A stretch of 33,243 bases of DNA from NCBI GenBank assembly GCA_944384215.1, contig CALWSN010000157.1:1-33243 (forward strand), written 5' to 3'. How positions within the stretch are numbered: position 1 is the first letter of the stretch; each line of letters opens with the position of its first letter. Below the pieces are notes generated by a model, which was not told the DNA's origin, did no database searches, and was given only the letters and a program-made list of their open reading frames with translations. Made by a program: the position numbers and the translations under genes. Positions 1,104 to 19,239 of this stretch are shown in pieces. The stretch is from an uncultured Clostridia bacterium. GTDB lineage: Bacteria; Bacillota; Clostridia; Lachnospirales; CAG-274.

Positions 1104-1685
1104 TTATTCTAGCTCTTTATCAAAAAAAGTTACTGTTATAGCTATTGCTTGGTCTGCATTTTCTAAATTTTTTGAAATATCAAAATAGGTAGTAACTTTA
1201 TCACCTAAAAAACCATATTTAGTATATAAAAATATTTCTTTATTTGGTTCTATATATTGTTCATTTTGTAAAAACTCATAAAAATTAACAACATCTGGTA
1301 TATTTTGTTTATTTTCATATGTAACAGTTGCACCATATCCATAATCATCATTTATTTTATATATATTTTTTTGTATATCTAAAGATATTGTAACTTTATC
1401 TTTGTATCTATCTTCATTATAATATGCTAAATCTTTAAGATTTGTAGAAAGGTTGCCAAAGCTTTTCCATTGCCCTTCATCTTTTTGCCATAAATCTATG
1501 CTAATAGCTTTTATTGTATCATCTATGCTATACTCAAAATTAATCTTACCATTACCAAAAGGATCTAATGTAGCATTAGACGTTATAGTCATATTTTTAG
1601 ACATTTTATATGAAATTTTTAACCCTATAAAACATATAGATAAAATAAGTAAAATAACTATTGTTTGTATATTTTTCTTTTTCAT
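1104..1685 (-). CDS. Membrane-anchored protein of unknown family, paralogue A (193 aa)
   Basis: I do not recognise this family. Residues 6-24 form one hydrophobic helix after a KKK start, giving a probable N-in anchor, with about 165 residues outside the membrane. It shares with the next two genes a central block ([19 protein letters not shown]) and a C-terminal block ([14 protein letters not shown], then AITVTFFD), so the three are paralogues. It is the most divergent copy. The start at 1685 is preferred because AAAGGTGATAAT lies just before it; an in-frame ATG at 1703 would put that site inside the gene and overlap the upstream stop. It begins 10 bases after paralogue B and is the last gene before alaS. 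There is no lipobox and no catalytic motif I can name. Confidence 0.8.
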
Positions 1686-1695
1686 ATTATCACCT

Positions 1696-2319
1696 TTATT
1701 CATCTAAAAAAGTTACTGTTGCCACCATACCTTTATCACAATCTTTTTCTCTAAAGTTTCCTCCTGTGCTATATACTTCTTTTTCATCAATATATCCATA
1801 TTGTTCAAATAACACAATTTCTTTATTAATTTCTATTTTTCCTTCACTTGAACTACCTTTTGTTACTGACTTTAAATTTTTATCTTCAAAATCTGGTACT
1901 TGCTGCCCTTCTTCATCTTCATATTGTGAGCTACTATATTCTTTTTCGTTTAAGTCCATATCTATAATAGTCAGTTTGTTTTTATCAACTTTCAAACCTA
2001 TTCTACCTTTTAAATCGTCTTCTGATTTCAAATTTTTAGTAGAGCTTGCAAAAGATACCCATTCATTGTTTTCATATTTTAAAAAATCAACTTTAAAAGA
2101 TTTTATCCTATCATCTATTTTATAATCAAAAAAATAAACTTCATCATTAAAAATCTTTAATATTTGGTCTGTCTCTTGAGAAAACTCTGACTTTTTAATA
2201 TACATATTATTATCTTCTTTAAAATTATTATAGTTTTTATCATTTTTATAATATGTAAATAAAATAATAAAAACTATAAATATTAAAAAAACTGACATTA
2301 AAAAATTTTTATTTTTCAT
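1696..2319 (-). CDS. Membrane-anchored protein of unknown family, paralogue B (207 aa)
   Basis: Middle gene of the three-paralogue cassette; function unknown. Residues 8-23 form a single hydrophobic anchor, followed by a linker rich in Asn, Lys and Asp, then a predicted extracellular domain. It aligns with paralogue C along most of its length: MYIKKSEFSQETDQIL against MYIEKFTFSDDAQQIL, YKIDDRIKSFKVDFLK..NEWVSFAS, NKEIVLFEQYGYI, and a C-terminal DKGMVATVTFLDE. The residues around the NKEIVLFEQYGYI block are also close at DNA level, which points to duplication. The ribosome site is GGTGAT three bases before ATG. It starts 12 bases after paralogue C ends, so the genes are probably cotranscribed. 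A secreted or surface beta-sandwich domain is a guess from the strand-like pattern. Confidence 0.8.
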   Translation of the reverse strand: MKNKNFLMSVFLIFIVFIILFTYYKNDKNYNNFKEDNNMYIKKSEFSQETDQILKIFNDEVYFFDYKIDDRIKSFKVDFLKYENNEWVSFASSTKNLKSEDDLKGRIGLKVDKNKLTIIDMDLNEKEYSSSQYEDEEGQQVPDFEDKNLKSVTKGSSSEGKIEINKEIVLFEQYGYIDEKEVYSTGGNFREKDCDKGMVATVTFLDE

Positions 2320-2331
2320 AATATCACCAAC

Positions 2332-2937
2332 CTATTTTTCACCTATTTTATTATCAAAAAATGTTACTGTTATTACTAATCCCTTATCACATTTATTATT
2401 TTTAAAATCACCTTTATTATTATTTACTTCTTGTTGCTTTTCTATATATCCATACTGTTCAAATAACACAATTTCTTTATTAGGTTCTATATCTCTATAA
2501 GCTAGCCATTTAGATGATATAGAATTTAACTGTTTAAAGCTTACAGGTTGTTGAAATCCTAACATTTTAGAACTATTTTTATCAAATTCTTCTATAATAT
2601 GTACCTTATCATCACTTATTTTTATACCAAACATATCTTCTCTTCTTGTTGGTAGGTCTAGGTTATATTCATTACTTGCAAATAAATCCCATTCACCTTT
2701 TTCGCATTTAAAAAATTTTATTTTCATAAATTTTATAGATTTATCTACTTTATAATTAAAAACCATTATTTTATCATCTATAATATTTAATATTTGTTGT
2801 GCATCATCTGAAAATGTAAATTTTTCTATATACATATTATATTTTTCATATTTATCTATATTATTACCTTTATTATAATACAAAAATACAACAAAAAATA
2901 TTAATATTAAGCCAATATATATTTTTTTATTTTTCAT
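2332..2937 (-). CDS. Membrane-anchored protein of unknown family, paralogue C (201 aa)
   Basis: First gene of the cassette and unrecognised. MKNKK is followed by a hydrophobic helix (about residues 6-21), a short polar linker, and a roughly 175-residue outer domain. Shared family blocks are YKVDKSIKFMKIKFFKCEKGEW (23-residue anchor region of the alignment, conserved Trp last), DIEPNKEIVLFEQYGYIE, and DKGLVITVTFFD at the C-terminus. The start at 2937 has GAGGTAGAAT upstream. Only 63 bases separate it from dnaB, and a strong terminator fills most of that gap, so expression must come from read-through or from a promoter inside the dnaB 3' end. No partner or enzyme gene is linked that would suggest a role. 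Confidence 0.8.
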   Translation of the reverse strand: MKNKKIYIGLILIFFVVFLYYNKGNNIDKYEKYNMYIEKFTFSDDAQQILNIIDDKIMVFNYKVDKSIKFMKIKFFKCEKGEWDLFASNEYNLDLPTRREDMFGIKISDDKVHIIEEFDKNSSKMLGFQQPVSFKQLNSISSKWLAYRDIEPNKEIVLFEQYGYIEKQQEVNNNKGDFKNNKCDKGLVITVTFFDNKIGEK

Positions 2938-2955
2938 ATTCTACCTCATATACAC

Positions 2956-2995
2956 AAAAAGCCCTTATCTTAATTGTAATAAATAAGATAAAGGC
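2956..2995 (-). terminator. Intrinsic terminator after dnaB
   Basis: Minus-strand arms at 2984-2995 and 2961-2972 pair over 12 positions with one mismatch around an 11-base AT-rich loop, followed by TTTTT (2960-2956). It ends the MazG-like-gdpP-rplI-dnaB unit and sits immediately upstream of the ribosome site of the first unknown paralogue. Confidence 0.85.
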
Positions 2996-3000
2996 AAATT

Positions 3001-4365
3001 TTATAAGTCGTTGTAAGTTCGTTCTAAGTTAGCAAATTTTGTATATTGCCCAAGCCAACTAAGATTTACTGTACCAACAGAACCATTTCTTTGTTTAGCA
3101 ATAATAACTTCGGCTTGTCCTCTTTTTTCAGTTTCTGGGTTATAGTATTCATCTCTATATAAAAAGCAAACAAGGTCTGCATCTTGCTCTATGGCTCCAG
3201 ACTCTCTAAGGTCTGATAGCATAGGCTTAGGAGGTTTTCTTTGTTCCACTGCCCTGCTAAGCTGAGAAAGAGCAACAACAGGTACATTTAGCTCTCTAGC
3301 CAATCCTTTTAAAGCACGAGATATATTAGATATTTCTTGTTGTCTGTTTTCATTTTTACCACTACCATTCATAAGTTGAAGATAGTCTATAACAATAAGT
3401 CCTAAGTTTTTATCTTTTTTAAGCCTTCTACATTTTGCTCTAAGCTCTGGTATAGTTATTGCAGACTTATCGTCTATATATATAGGTGCTTCTGATAAAG
3501 CACTAACTGCCTCTGCTATTTTATACCAATCATCAGACTGTATATCGCCTGTTCTAAGCTTTTGAGCATCTACCAAAGCCTCAGTACAAATCATACGATT
3601 AACTAACTGTTCTTTAGACATTTCTAGGCTAAAGATAGCTGTTGTAACATTATTATGTAATGCGGCATATTGAGCTATATTTATAACAAAAGCTGTTTTA
3701 CCCATAGAAGGCCTTGCTGCTATAAGTATAAAGTCAGAATTTTGTAGCCCAGAAGTTTTCATATCAAAGTCTATAAAGCCTGTTTCTACACCAGTAACTT
3801 TACTTTTATTTTTAAAAAGTGTTTCTATTTTTTCAATAGAAGTTTCTAAAACTTGGCTAATAGGAGAAAAGTCATCTAAATTGTTATTATCGCCTATACT
3901 TTCTACTATTTTTTCAGCTTTTTCTACAATATTTTCTATTGTTTGAGTATTGTCAAAGGTTAGTGCATTAATATCTTTAGATGCTTTTAAAATTTTTCTT
4001 CTTATAGATTTTTCTTTTACAATTTCTGCATATTGTTTTGTTAAAGCACTTGTAGATACTATGTTATAAAGCTCTACCACATATTCATATCCACCTATAT
4101 TGCTAAGCATATTAATACTTTCTAGCTTATCTTTTAAAGTTATAACATCTACTGGTTGGCTATCAGAATACATATCTATCATAGCATCAAACAATATTTT
4201 ATGTTCTGGTCGATAAAAATCATCTGCTTTTAACATTTCATAAGCAGTAGAGATACCATCTATATCAAATATCATACAGCTAAGAACAGCTTGTTCTGCC
4301 TCAAAATCGTTAGGTGGTATCTCTGGGTTTATATTAGGGTTTATATTAGGGTTTATATCTTCCAT
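3001..4365 (-). CDS. dnaB: Replicative DNA helicase DnaB
   Basis: Hexameric 5'-3' helicase that unwinds DNA at the replication fork (called DnaC in Bacillus subtilis). The 454 residues are the normal length. The N-terminal domain spans about 15-130, and the RecA-like domain has Walker A ARPSMGKTA at 217-225, the SLEMS segment at 246-250, Walker B LIVIDYLQLM at 323-332, and the conserved SQLSRAVE and SDLRESGAIEQDAD stretches. The start has AGGTGTAAT before ATG. Seven bases separate it from rplI, and it closes the gdpP-rplI-dnaB operon seen in many Firmicutes. The extreme N-terminus holds a short tandem repeat (INPN INPN INPE) in place of the usual short leader. Identification is secure. Confidence 0.98.
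   Translation of the reverse strand: MEDINPNINPNINPEIPPNDFEAEQAVLSCMIFDIDGISTAYEMLKADDFYRPEHKILFDAMIDMYSDSQPVDVITLKDKLESINMLSNIGGYEYVVELYNIVSTSALTKQYAEIVKEKSIRRKILKASKDINALTFDNTQTIENIVEKAEKIVESIGDNNNLDDFSPISQVLETSIEKIETLFKNKSKVTGVETGFIDFDMKTSGLQNSDFILIAARPSMGKTAFVINIAQYAALHNNVTTAIFSLEMSKEQLVNRMICTEALVDAQKLRTGDIQSDDWYKIAEAVSALSEAPIYIDDKSAITIPELRAKCRRLKKDKNLGLIVIDYLQLMNGSGKNENRQQEISNISRALKGLARELNVPVVALSQLSRAVEQRKPPKPMLSDLRESGAIEQDADLVCFLYRDEYYNPETEKRGQAEVIIAKQRNGSVGTVNLSWLGQYTKFANLERTYNDL
4321..4356 (-). repeat. 12-base tandem repeat at the dnaB 5' end
   Basis: Three consecutive 12-base units: ATAAACCCTAAT twice, then ATAAACCCAGAG. They encode residues 4-15 of DnaB as INPN-INPN-INPE. The first two units are identical, so the number of copies could change without breaking the frame. 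Confidence 0.85.
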
Positions 4366-17627: not shown

Positions 17628-18455
17628 ATGCACATAACAGATATAGATTTTAAAGACTTTAACCCAAATATGCTATTTTGTGTTAAAGGAATTAGACAAA
17701 CTAAAGAATGTAGCCATAAGCATAACCATATGGAAGTTGCATATATTATGTCTGGTAAGGCTATTTTTAATATAAACGGTATTTCTTATGATGTAGAAGA
17801 AGGAGACATAGTTTTAATAAACCCAGAACAAGCTCATTATGGTATGCCTGTTTCGGTAGAAAAGCCTAGCTTAGAATTTTTTGTTGGTTTTTCTAACTTT
17901 AAGTTTAATAATATGATAGAAAACACTCTATTTTTAAATGAATACCCTATTATAAAAACTACACCTTCATCAAGAAAAAAGTTTTTAGACCTAATAGATG
18001 ATATAATGGAAGAAAACAGCTCAAACCAAACAGGTAAAGATTTTATGTTACAATCATATCTTACACAATTTATATTGTTATCTATTAGAGAAAAACAACA
18101 AGAAAATACTACATTTTCTGAAACTAAAAAATCTACTATTAGTAAAGAGATACAGTCCTATTTTCACGAGCATTTTGCTGAAAAAATATCTCTTGAACAA
18201 ATAGCAAAAAATTTATATTTAAGCCCTTTTTATATATCTAAAGTTTTTAAAGAAGAAATAGGAGAAACACCTATAAATTATCTTATAAAAATAAGGCTTG
18301 AAAATGCTAAAGATTTACTTTTAAACAAAAAAGATTTAAGCATAAAAGAAATATCTTCTATTGTTGGCTATGAAGATGCTTATCATTTTAGTAAGAGCTT
18401 TAAAAAATACTATGGTTTATCTCCTGCCGAATATAAAAAATTACATATATCATAA
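17628..18455 (+). CDS. AraC-family transcriptional regulator
   Basis: 275 residues. The N-terminal cupin-like sensor (about 1-130) shows HKHNHMEVAYIMSGKA, then GISYDVEEGDIVLINPEQAHYG, usual for sugar- or small-molecule-sensing members. The C-terminal double helix-turn-helix (about 175-272) includes SLEQIAKNLYLSPFYISKVFKEEIG, then DLSIKEISSIVGYEDAYHFSKSFKKYYGLSPAEYKK, the AraC signature. GTAGGTGATTTT precedes the ATG. Divergent from the ABC exporter pair, the usual place for a local regulator, so it may activate them; the ligand is unknown. Confidence 0.93.
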   Translation: MHITDIDFKDFNPNMLFCVKGIRQTKECSHKHNHMEVAYIMSGKAIFNINGISYDVEEGDIVLINPEQAHYGMPVSVEKPSLEFFVGFSNFKFNNMIENTLFLNEYPIIKTTPSSRKKFLDLIDDIMEENSSNQTGKDFMLQSYLTQFILLSIREKQQENTTFSETKKSTISKEIQSYFHEHFAEKISLEQIAKNLYLSPFYISKVFKEEIGETPINYLIKIRLENAKDLLLNKKDLSIKEISSIVGYEDAYHFSKSFKKYYGLSPAEYKKLHIS

Positions 18456-18578
18456 AATATTTATCAACCAATTTTTTACAATAACCAATTTTTTGAATAC
18501 TTTGTATTAAAAAACAGGTATTCCTAAATATTTTAAAACAAAATCATTTATAAACATACCTTAATTGTAATAAATAAA

Positions 18579-18615
18579 AAATATCCACAATAATTAAAAA
18601 ATATTGTAGATATTT
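18579..18615 (+). repeat. 37-base repeat, copy 1
   Basis: Reads AAATATCCACAATAATTAAA and continues to GTAGATATTT. It is itself an inverted repeat, with one stem mismatch (A where copy 2 has G). Identical to 18848-18884 apart from that base. Confidence 0.9.
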
Positions 18616-18652
18616 CAGACTGTAGATAAAATATTATTAAGGCAACTTTTTT

Positions 18653-18688
18653 AATTTTTATATACTATGTATATAGGATATAAAAATT
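18653..18688. repeat. Inverted repeat, 11-base arms
   Basis: AATTTTTATAT (18653-18663) pairs with ATATAAAAATT (18678-18688) around a 14-base loop. AT-only stem, so weak by itself, but it is part of the chain that follows. Confidence 0.6.
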
Positions 18689-18693
18689 TTAGT

Positions 18694-18722
18694 CACAAGA
18701 CGGGGCTTTGCCTCGGATTGTG
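18694..18722. repeat. GC-rich hairpin
   Basis: CACAA/TTGTG outer pairs, a 2-base internal mismatch, then a CGGGGC/GCCTCG stem including one G-T pair with a TTT loop. Among the few GC-rich non-coding stretches in the window. Confidence 0.65.
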
Positions 18723-18723
18723 T

Positions 18724-18776
18724 AAAAAGCTAGATTTCTAGGGGCTTTAGCCCTTATACGCAGAAATCAGCTTTTT
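18724..18776. terminator. Nested hairpin with T tract, probable bidirectional terminator
   Basis: Outer arms AAAAAGCT / AGCTTTTT and GATTTCT / AGAAATC (one bulged A) enclose a second hairpin GGGCT / AGCCC with a TT loop. It ends in a long T run on the plus strand and an A run on the left arm, so it could stop transcripts from either side. Confidence 0.7.
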
Positions 18777-18791
18777 TTCTTTAGAATATCT

Positions 18792-18818
18792 CAAAAAAAT
18801 AAACTTGTTATTTTTTTG
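18792..18818. repeat. Perfect 11-base inverted repeat
   Basis: CAAAAAAATAA (18792-18802) and its exact complement (18808-18818) with a 5-base loop. Confidence 0.7.
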
Positions 18819-18820
18819 AA

Positions 18821-18847
18821 GAGGTTGAAGACTTTGTCTTCAACCTC
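18821..18847. repeat. Perfect 12-base hairpin with TTT loop
   Basis: GAGGTTGAAGAC (18821-18832), TTT, then its exact complement (18836-18847). Its apex AGACTTTGTCT is the same as in the hairpin at 26112-26136. No T tract follows on either strand, so a simple terminator role is doubtful. Confidence 0.8.
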
Positions 18848-18884
18848 AAATATCCACAATAATTAAAAAATATTGTGGATATTT
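18848..18884 (+). repeat. 37-base repeat, copy 2
   Basis: Same sequence as 18579-18615 with one difference, here giving a perfect ATATCCACAAT / ATTGTGGATAT stem. On the plus strand a short T run follows. It ends 7 bases before the mazF stop codon, so it may also end the mazF transcript. Confidence 0.9.
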
Positions 18885-18891
18885 TTATGGC

Positions 18892-19239
18892 TTATGTATT
18901 AAGTCCCAAGCTAATTAATAATGCCTTGTCTACCTTACTCATTATAGTATCATCTAAATGACCTATTTTTTCTTTCATTCTTTTTTTATCAATAGTTCTT
19001 ACTTGTTCAAGCAAAACAACCGAATCTTTTATTAACGGATATTTATTACAATCTATTTCTATATGTGTTGGTAGCTTAGCTTTATTTATTTGAGATGTTA
19101 TGGCTGCACAAATAATGGTAGGGCTATATCTATTGCCTATATCATTTTGCACAACCAAAATAGGTCTAACGCCTCCCTGTTCGGAGCCTACAACAGGGCT
19201 TAAATCTGCATAGAAAATATCCCCTCTTTTCACAATCAT
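18892..19239 (-). CDS. mazF: MazF/EndoA-type mRNA interferase toxin
   Basis: Sequence-specific endoribonuclease of the MazF/PemK family that cuts mRNA at short motifs. 115 residues, very close to Bacillus EndoA as I recall it: [26 protein letters not shown] at the start (its conserved Arg and Ser/Thr residues form the active site), [31 protein letters not shown], and [13 protein letters not shown]. The ribosome site is GGAGTG, 8-10 bases upstream. The usual upstream partner mazE is missing: between alr and mazF there are only 148 bases and one 16-codon ORF. Toxin residues look intact, so its control must come from elsewhere, or it is expressed weakly. Confidence 0.95.

Follow-up and report, generated by a model that had tools for sequence, protein, structure and literature searches.

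The window analyzed here is a stretch of 33,243 nucleotides from an uncultured member of the Clostridia, and between the convergent ends of an AraC-family regulator gene and a MazF/PemK-type gene it contains 306 bases (18579-18884) made up of seven inverted repeats, two outer and five inner (Table 1). A preliminary description of this DNA had listed two terminal stems and five further inverted repeats between a convergent araC and mazF; all seven repeats are present, and the gene names are correct as judged by their Pfam domains. It had suggested that the set might be a structured RNA, a miniature mobile element, or a barrier against convergent transcription. The folding z-scores relative to dinucleotide shuffles are −10.0 on the plus strand and −11.4 on the minus strand, with none of 100 shuffles folding equally well, and the GC content is 27% for the window and 30% for the 232-bp element that lies between the outer hairpins. 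This element has no ORF of 60 amino acids. A simple terminator scan of the window called none of the seven hairpins a terminator, and the terminator role that we assign to hairpins is a prediction from the anatomy of a hairpin with a T-tract. The key to the whole structure is that the two outer hairpins, of 37 nt each, are direct repeats of each other with an identity of 36/37.

Table 1. Features of the mazF-araC intergenic region and its flanking genes (window coordinates).
Feature	Position	Strand	Evidence or remarks
AraC-family regulator gene, convergent neighbor	17628-18455	+	PF12833, PF02311
Left target copy: palindromic stem-loop AAATATCCACAATAATTAAAAAATATTGTAGATATTT, former putative mazF/araC terminator	18579-18615		36/37 versus 18848-18884; lone homologous hairpin at the G007 empty site
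MITE, probably IS1182-type, non-autonomous, 232 bp	18616-18847	+	Dispersed copies in its own genome, copies in congeners, ends set by 31 two-ended copies
Left terminal inverted repeat CAGACTGTAGATAAA, family consensus CAGACTGTAGACAAA	18616-18630	+	15-mer also at the ends of IS1182 elements L080, L341-L343, L346 and L348
Inner hairpin 1, AT-rich, stem variable	18653-18688		Compensatory AU/GC change, columns 48-75
Inner hairpin 2, GC-rich, CACAA..CGGGGC-TTT-GCCTCG..TTGTG	18694-18722		Folding and covariation
Inner hairpin 3, GC-containing; plus-strand T-tract in and after the 3' arm, A-tract in the 5' arm	18724-18776		Bidirectional terminator-like
Inner hairpin 4, perfect 12-bp stem	18791-18819		Another palindrome in its place in G005 copies
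Inner hairpin 5, the palindromic right end, perfect 12-bp stem	18821-18847		UA 16, CG 7, GC 5 at columns 260-278
Right terminal inverted repeat, reverse complement GAGGTTGAAGACAAA, consensus GAGGTTGTAGACAAA	18833-18847	-	
Right target copy: stem-loop AAATATCCACAATAATTAAAAAATATTGTGGATATTT	18848-18884		7 bp from the mazF stop codon
MazF/PemK-type gene, convergent neighbor	18892-19239	-	PF02452, E 8e-37

The left target copy is abutted by a second, unrelated dispersed repeat (18481-18578; AATCAATTTTTTGAATACTTTGTATTCAAAAACAGGTATTCC...AAGTCATACCTTAATTG), which has 47 matches in the same genome and matches in seven of eight congeners, is at times in tandem, and is often located directly 5' of a terminator hairpin. 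A few bases after ACAG in this repeat seem to covary with those before CTTAATTG (GGTAT/ATACC, GATGT/ACATC, and GATAT/ATATC), not in every copy.

The part between the outer stems is a dispersed element with defined ends. A search of the genome for the unit, which had been suggested as a check, yielded ~17 additional copies, whole or fragmentary, in the same genome (G000; 157 contigs, 81% complete) with 71-95% identity, nearly all of them limited to the part between the outer stems, and copies are also found in four congeners (G002, G004, G005, and G007). The copies start with CAGACTGTAGACAAAAT and end with ..GTAGACAAAGTCTACAACCTC, representing 15-bp terminal inverted repeats whose two consensus sequences are 12/15 identical. 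The C62 copy and one of the G002 copies have the same ends as the window element and different interiors. Elements with the terminal repeats of the MITE, hairpin duplications, and other interiors that contain a GGTGGGTGGGTTTAGATAA-like motif are seen at L029 (3593-3788) and L064 (1235-1520), and such interiors are also found in L052, L057, and L067, representing several MITE lineages with common ends. The same end group is present in a distant family of the order (G063 and G226), in which L050, L059, and L190 are GC-richer elements with the right end AAGGGTGTCGACWWWGTCGACACCCTC, some of them next to terminator hairpins.

The hairpin that flanks the element differs from locus to locus and is present on both sides of it, examples being AGGCTATGATATAATCATAGCCT (C86), AAAGGACAAGCCTAAGCTTGTCCTTT (C121), and TAAGGCAATAAATTATTTTARTTTATTGCCTTA (C36 of G005). 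A duplication of 15-41 bp is found in 21 of the 31 two-ended copies (C94 is marginal at 17/24), and in 18 of these it is as long as the flush hairpin, to within 1 bp. A flush hairpin with a score of 7 or more is present at the left end of 22 of the 31 copies as compared with 2.65% of 29,952 control positions, and this signal is maximal at offset 0, exactly at the junction. By a stricter identity rule the left and right flanks of the same copy match in 17 of 31 cases versus 11 of 930 mismatched pairs, at least one of which (C130/C121) is a truly shared flank. A clear duplication is missing in about 10 of the 31 copies, by decay, recombination, or assembly (e.g., C130). The copies adjoin a gene 3' end in 28 of 31 cases, 14 of them are between two convergent gene ends, and none of the 31 was seen inside an open frame. 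The hairpin next to one G004 element (1737597) is itself the right end of a different copy. The flanks of L012 (C130), L015 (C74), L023 (C94), and L019 (C116) derive on the left and right from different hairpins that are common to other contigs, which reflects either that copies have recombined or that the assembly is broken at the repeat. The two target copies of the C92 element (L017) have diverged by compensatory change (CACTAG..CTAGTG versus CACCAG..CTGGTG), as if both hairpins remain constrained.

Across the genus the mazF-araC locus contains the element in two of eight genomes. At this locus G007 has a single hairpin, AAAATAGCCACAATATTTTTATATTGTGGCTATTTT, that is homologous to the window target, G003 likewise has one hairpin, and G006 has one different hairpin, AAAGACCATCATTAATAGATGGTCTTT. 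The latter is duplicated in G005 around an insertion of the same element family that is in the opposite orientation relative to mazF and is independent of that in the window, and hence the mazF-araC intergenic terminator has been targeted twice. A further degenerate copy is found in G007 upstream of mazF, between mazF and alr (L337, about 579-736), while the mazF-araC terminator of that genome is empty. The two outer hairpins are therefore one 37-bp mazF/araC terminator that was duplicated by insertion, rather than two separate terminators. As the hairpin chain is short, without coding capacity, and has dispersed copies, terminal inverted repeats, a target duplication, and an empty site, it is a MITE; of the options originally offered, the miniature mobile element is the one that these data, together with its autonomous relatives, bear out.

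The probable parent family was found when viral contigs were scanned with the 15-mer CAGACTGTMGACAAA. L080 is an element of 1565 bp with CAGACTGTMGACAAA at both ends and a 444-residue IS1182-type transposase (PF13751, 4e-23; PF05598, 3e-21; PF01609) that is ~94-98% identical to Staphylococcus simulans proteins annotated as IS1182 family, and it is flanked by a duplicated hairpin, AAGGGTGCTTCAAGCACCCAT, a palindromic duplication of 21 bp. The 15-mer end is common to the MITE and a set of such elements (Table 1). Of the 85 distinct 15-mer matches in the viral contigs, 23 have a flush hairpin, even though many of the matches must be chance. Other autonomous elements with such ends and whole-hairpin duplications are found in Cytobacillus (19 bp), S. 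caeli (27 bp), a plasmid of S. simulans (27 bp), S. arlettae (21 bp), Macrococcoides (22 bp), Sutcliffiella (30 bp), a Listeria plasmid (21 bp), Peribacillus (24 bp), and a phage contig (24 bp). The transposases were collected by degenerate patterns, and the collection is skewed toward Staphylococcus because the query was staphylococcal. The closest full-length relative by host family is from G012, which belongs to the same taxonomic family as the window (L208); it is 1511 bp long, is flanked by a duplicated hairpin of 25 bp, and has ends, CAGTCTGTCAATAAA, that are close but not identical. The same region (L208, about 1368-3196) has three copies of one terminator hairpin. An IS1182 element separates copies one and two, and an additional palindrome-ended piece of ~240 bp precedes the third, representing serial insertions at one terminator. 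An IS1182-like element of Desulfosporosinus that has other ends duplicates a 17-bp palindrome.

Given the ends shared with transposase-bearing IS1182 elements and the stem-loop target, the best reading of the sequences is that the MITE is an IS1182-family derivative, even though the outer bases of its right end (GAGGTTG..) differ from those of most autonomous elements (CAGACTG..). A helper transposase was found neither in its own genome (81% complete, searched with PF13751) nor in seven congeners (searched with the L080 protein), and the element was not found at the DNA level in sequenced phages. As no matching transposase was found among the eight genomes sampled from the genus, the helper can be inferred from relatives only, and the MITE looks orphaned and is probably not moving at present.

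Covariation across relatives was the second check that had been suggested, and the inner hairpins covary strongly. In an alignment of 28 copies, 92% of the cells pair, and 19 of 70 pairs have changed on both sides versus 10.6 in shuffles (79 versus 22.6 such cells), a control that overstates significance because the copies are related. Slid controls, which are free of that fault yet favor a structure derived from one sequence, gave 44-57% paired cells and 4-9 pairs changed on both sides. The covarying columns include 260-278 (UA/CG/GC), 141-193 (UA/AU/CG), and 48-75 (AU/GC). The T and A tracts on the two sides of inner hairpin 3 are nearly invariant among the 28 copies, and its predicted anatomy is that of a bidirectional terminator. 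G.U cells outnumber A.C cells on the plus strand by 106 to 35, and this excess, which rests on few columns, is suggestive at most of selection at the RNA level. The inner stems may be selected either as RNA, for termination or stability, or as DNA palindromes, for transposition or cruciform-based correction. A known RNA family was rejected, as the region has no Rfam match at the gathering score (the best sub-threshold match has 26 bits) and the matches are at chance level when the threshold is relaxed. The structured RNA option is partly borne out, in that the inner hairpins covary, yet they belong to the element, and a discrete RNA would go beyond these findings.

It is nevertheless conceivable that the copies are retained by the host as a domesticated insulator or structured RNA that stops convergent read-through or provides a stable 3' end, rather than being just selfish DNA. 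The strong covariation of the inner stems, the bidirectional terminator-like hairpin 3, the G.U excess, and the fraction of copies located between two convergent gene ends all count in its favor. We consider this unlikely, since the sites had a terminator already, a minority of genomes have the element at mazF-araC, the single locus that was compared throughout the genus, and elements with the same ends and other interiors (C62, L064, and the autonomous IS1182 elements) behave identically. The few columns behind the G.U excess also weigh against it, and cruciform or template-switch correction can maintain palindromes without RNA selection. The barrier against convergent transcription proposed earlier is plausible as a side effect of the bidirectional terminator-like hairpins and is probably not the reason why the element is there, because the 14 of 31 copies between convergent gene ends leave the rest not seen in that arrangement. 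Stacked ordinary terminators arising by local duplication without transposition would account for a near-identical pair of outer hairpins beside two convergent genes, and we regard them as extremely improbable: the unit between the hairpins is repeated genome-wide with fixed ends and a different flanking hairpin at each locus, and these copies and the single homologous hairpin at the empty site in G007 rule them out. A remnant of an IS200/IS605 or TnpB-type end (omega RNA) or of a group I intron, to which the sub-threshold Rfam matches point (IS605-orfB-II, 26.3 bits, E 0.022; group I intron, 16.7 bits), is hardly credible, as the gathering scores are far higher (88 and 50), the window ends match IS1182 elements with DDE transposases, and neither true terminal inverted repeats nor long target duplications are in keeping with IS200/IS605.

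We therefore propose, with high confidence, that the common bidirectional terminator of mazF and araC was the insertion site of an IS1182-type MITE, and that the whole stem-loop of this terminator is now present on both sides of the element. The transposase would recognize the stem-loop, probably as an extruded cruciform, rather than a sequence, and in our model of cruciform cutting both transposon 3' ends would be joined at the two 5' feet of the palindrome, which gap filling would then copy. Because the two feet meet at a four-way junction, the stagger, and hence the duplication, would be the length of the palindrome (15-41 bp) instead of a fixed few bases. Insertion would be harmless as each gene keeps a hairpin and has the bidirectional terminator-like hairpins of the element in between, and a contribution of the element's own hairpins to such harmlessness would explain why the inner stems are kept by compensatory changes. 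A broader proposal, toward which we are nearly evenly disposed with a slight lean to doubt, is that transposases of this IS1182-type clade act like a junction-specific nuclease and cut an extruded cruciform at its two 5' feet, so that one entire terminator is always duplicated regardless of its length, and that the MITEs have evolved into self-insulating terminator cassettes that spread via the 3' ends of genes and cost the host next to nothing.

Repeat lengths given by ISfinder for IS1182 are very variable. Palindromes or terminator hairpins likewise serve as targets for IS1111/IS110 elements and group IIC introns, which use different enzymes and give no long target duplication, and the window element is distinct from both in that its ends match IS1182 elements. 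IS1272 and TnSha1/TnSha2 of staphylococci resemble the MITE in transposase family and in having a stem-loop target, often a terminator, that is chosen by structure rather than sequence (PMC4923244; PMC5678879). However, IS1272/TnSha1 insertion at hairpins, several of which are terminators, removes a portion of the hairpin (Furi et al., 2016, PMC4923244), and IS1272 deletes or replaces the hairpin without target duplication, whereas the hairpin is present on both sides of the MITE, which therefore did not arise by such a stem-loop replacement. Wan et al. (2017, PMC5678879) observed the stem-loop deletion by IS1272 and drew the joining at 5' feet and copying of the palindrome as a hypothetical branch, and IS1182 transposases are described as producing a duplication, a deletion, or neither, and as possibly recognizing the structure of the target (PMC12056078). 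Plasmid-borne IS1182-family elements of Staphylococcus, Macrococcoides, Sutcliffiella, Listeria, Peribacillus, and Enterococcus (ISEfa7) have CAGACTGTMGACAAA or a near version at their ends, as does the MITE, and six of the nine examined are flanked by a duplicated whole hairpin of 21-30 bp, but these elements are autonomous (about 1.5-1.75 kb with a transposase gene), reside in other hosts, and lack the five-hairpin interior. Bacterial MITEs, including the pneumococcal BOX, RUP, and SPRITE, are likewise small, mostly non-coding, intergenic, strongly folding, and dispersed; they are thought to be mobilized by IS transposases and SPRITE is terminator-like, but target duplication of an entire terminator hairpin, as seen in the window, is not reported in these accounts of them (PMC3049150; PMC10969869). 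Structure-targeted IS1182 insertion is already known. As far as we have searched the open-access literature, there is no description of whole-hairpin duplication by a wide range of IS1182 elements, nor of a heavily structured MITE that exploits it.

If the mechanism proposed herein is correct, there is a group of DDE transposases that duplicate an entire structure of the target, with no set length for the duplication. Such behavior would suggest that a DNA junction is recognized, a prediction open to tests in vitro. Mobile DNA would also have a way to spread with little harm in compact AT-rich genomes, in that it inserts at terminators, leaves one of them on either side, and carries additional ones itself. 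For annotation the lesson is that intergenic chains of hairpins can be transposon insertions and not regulatory RNA.
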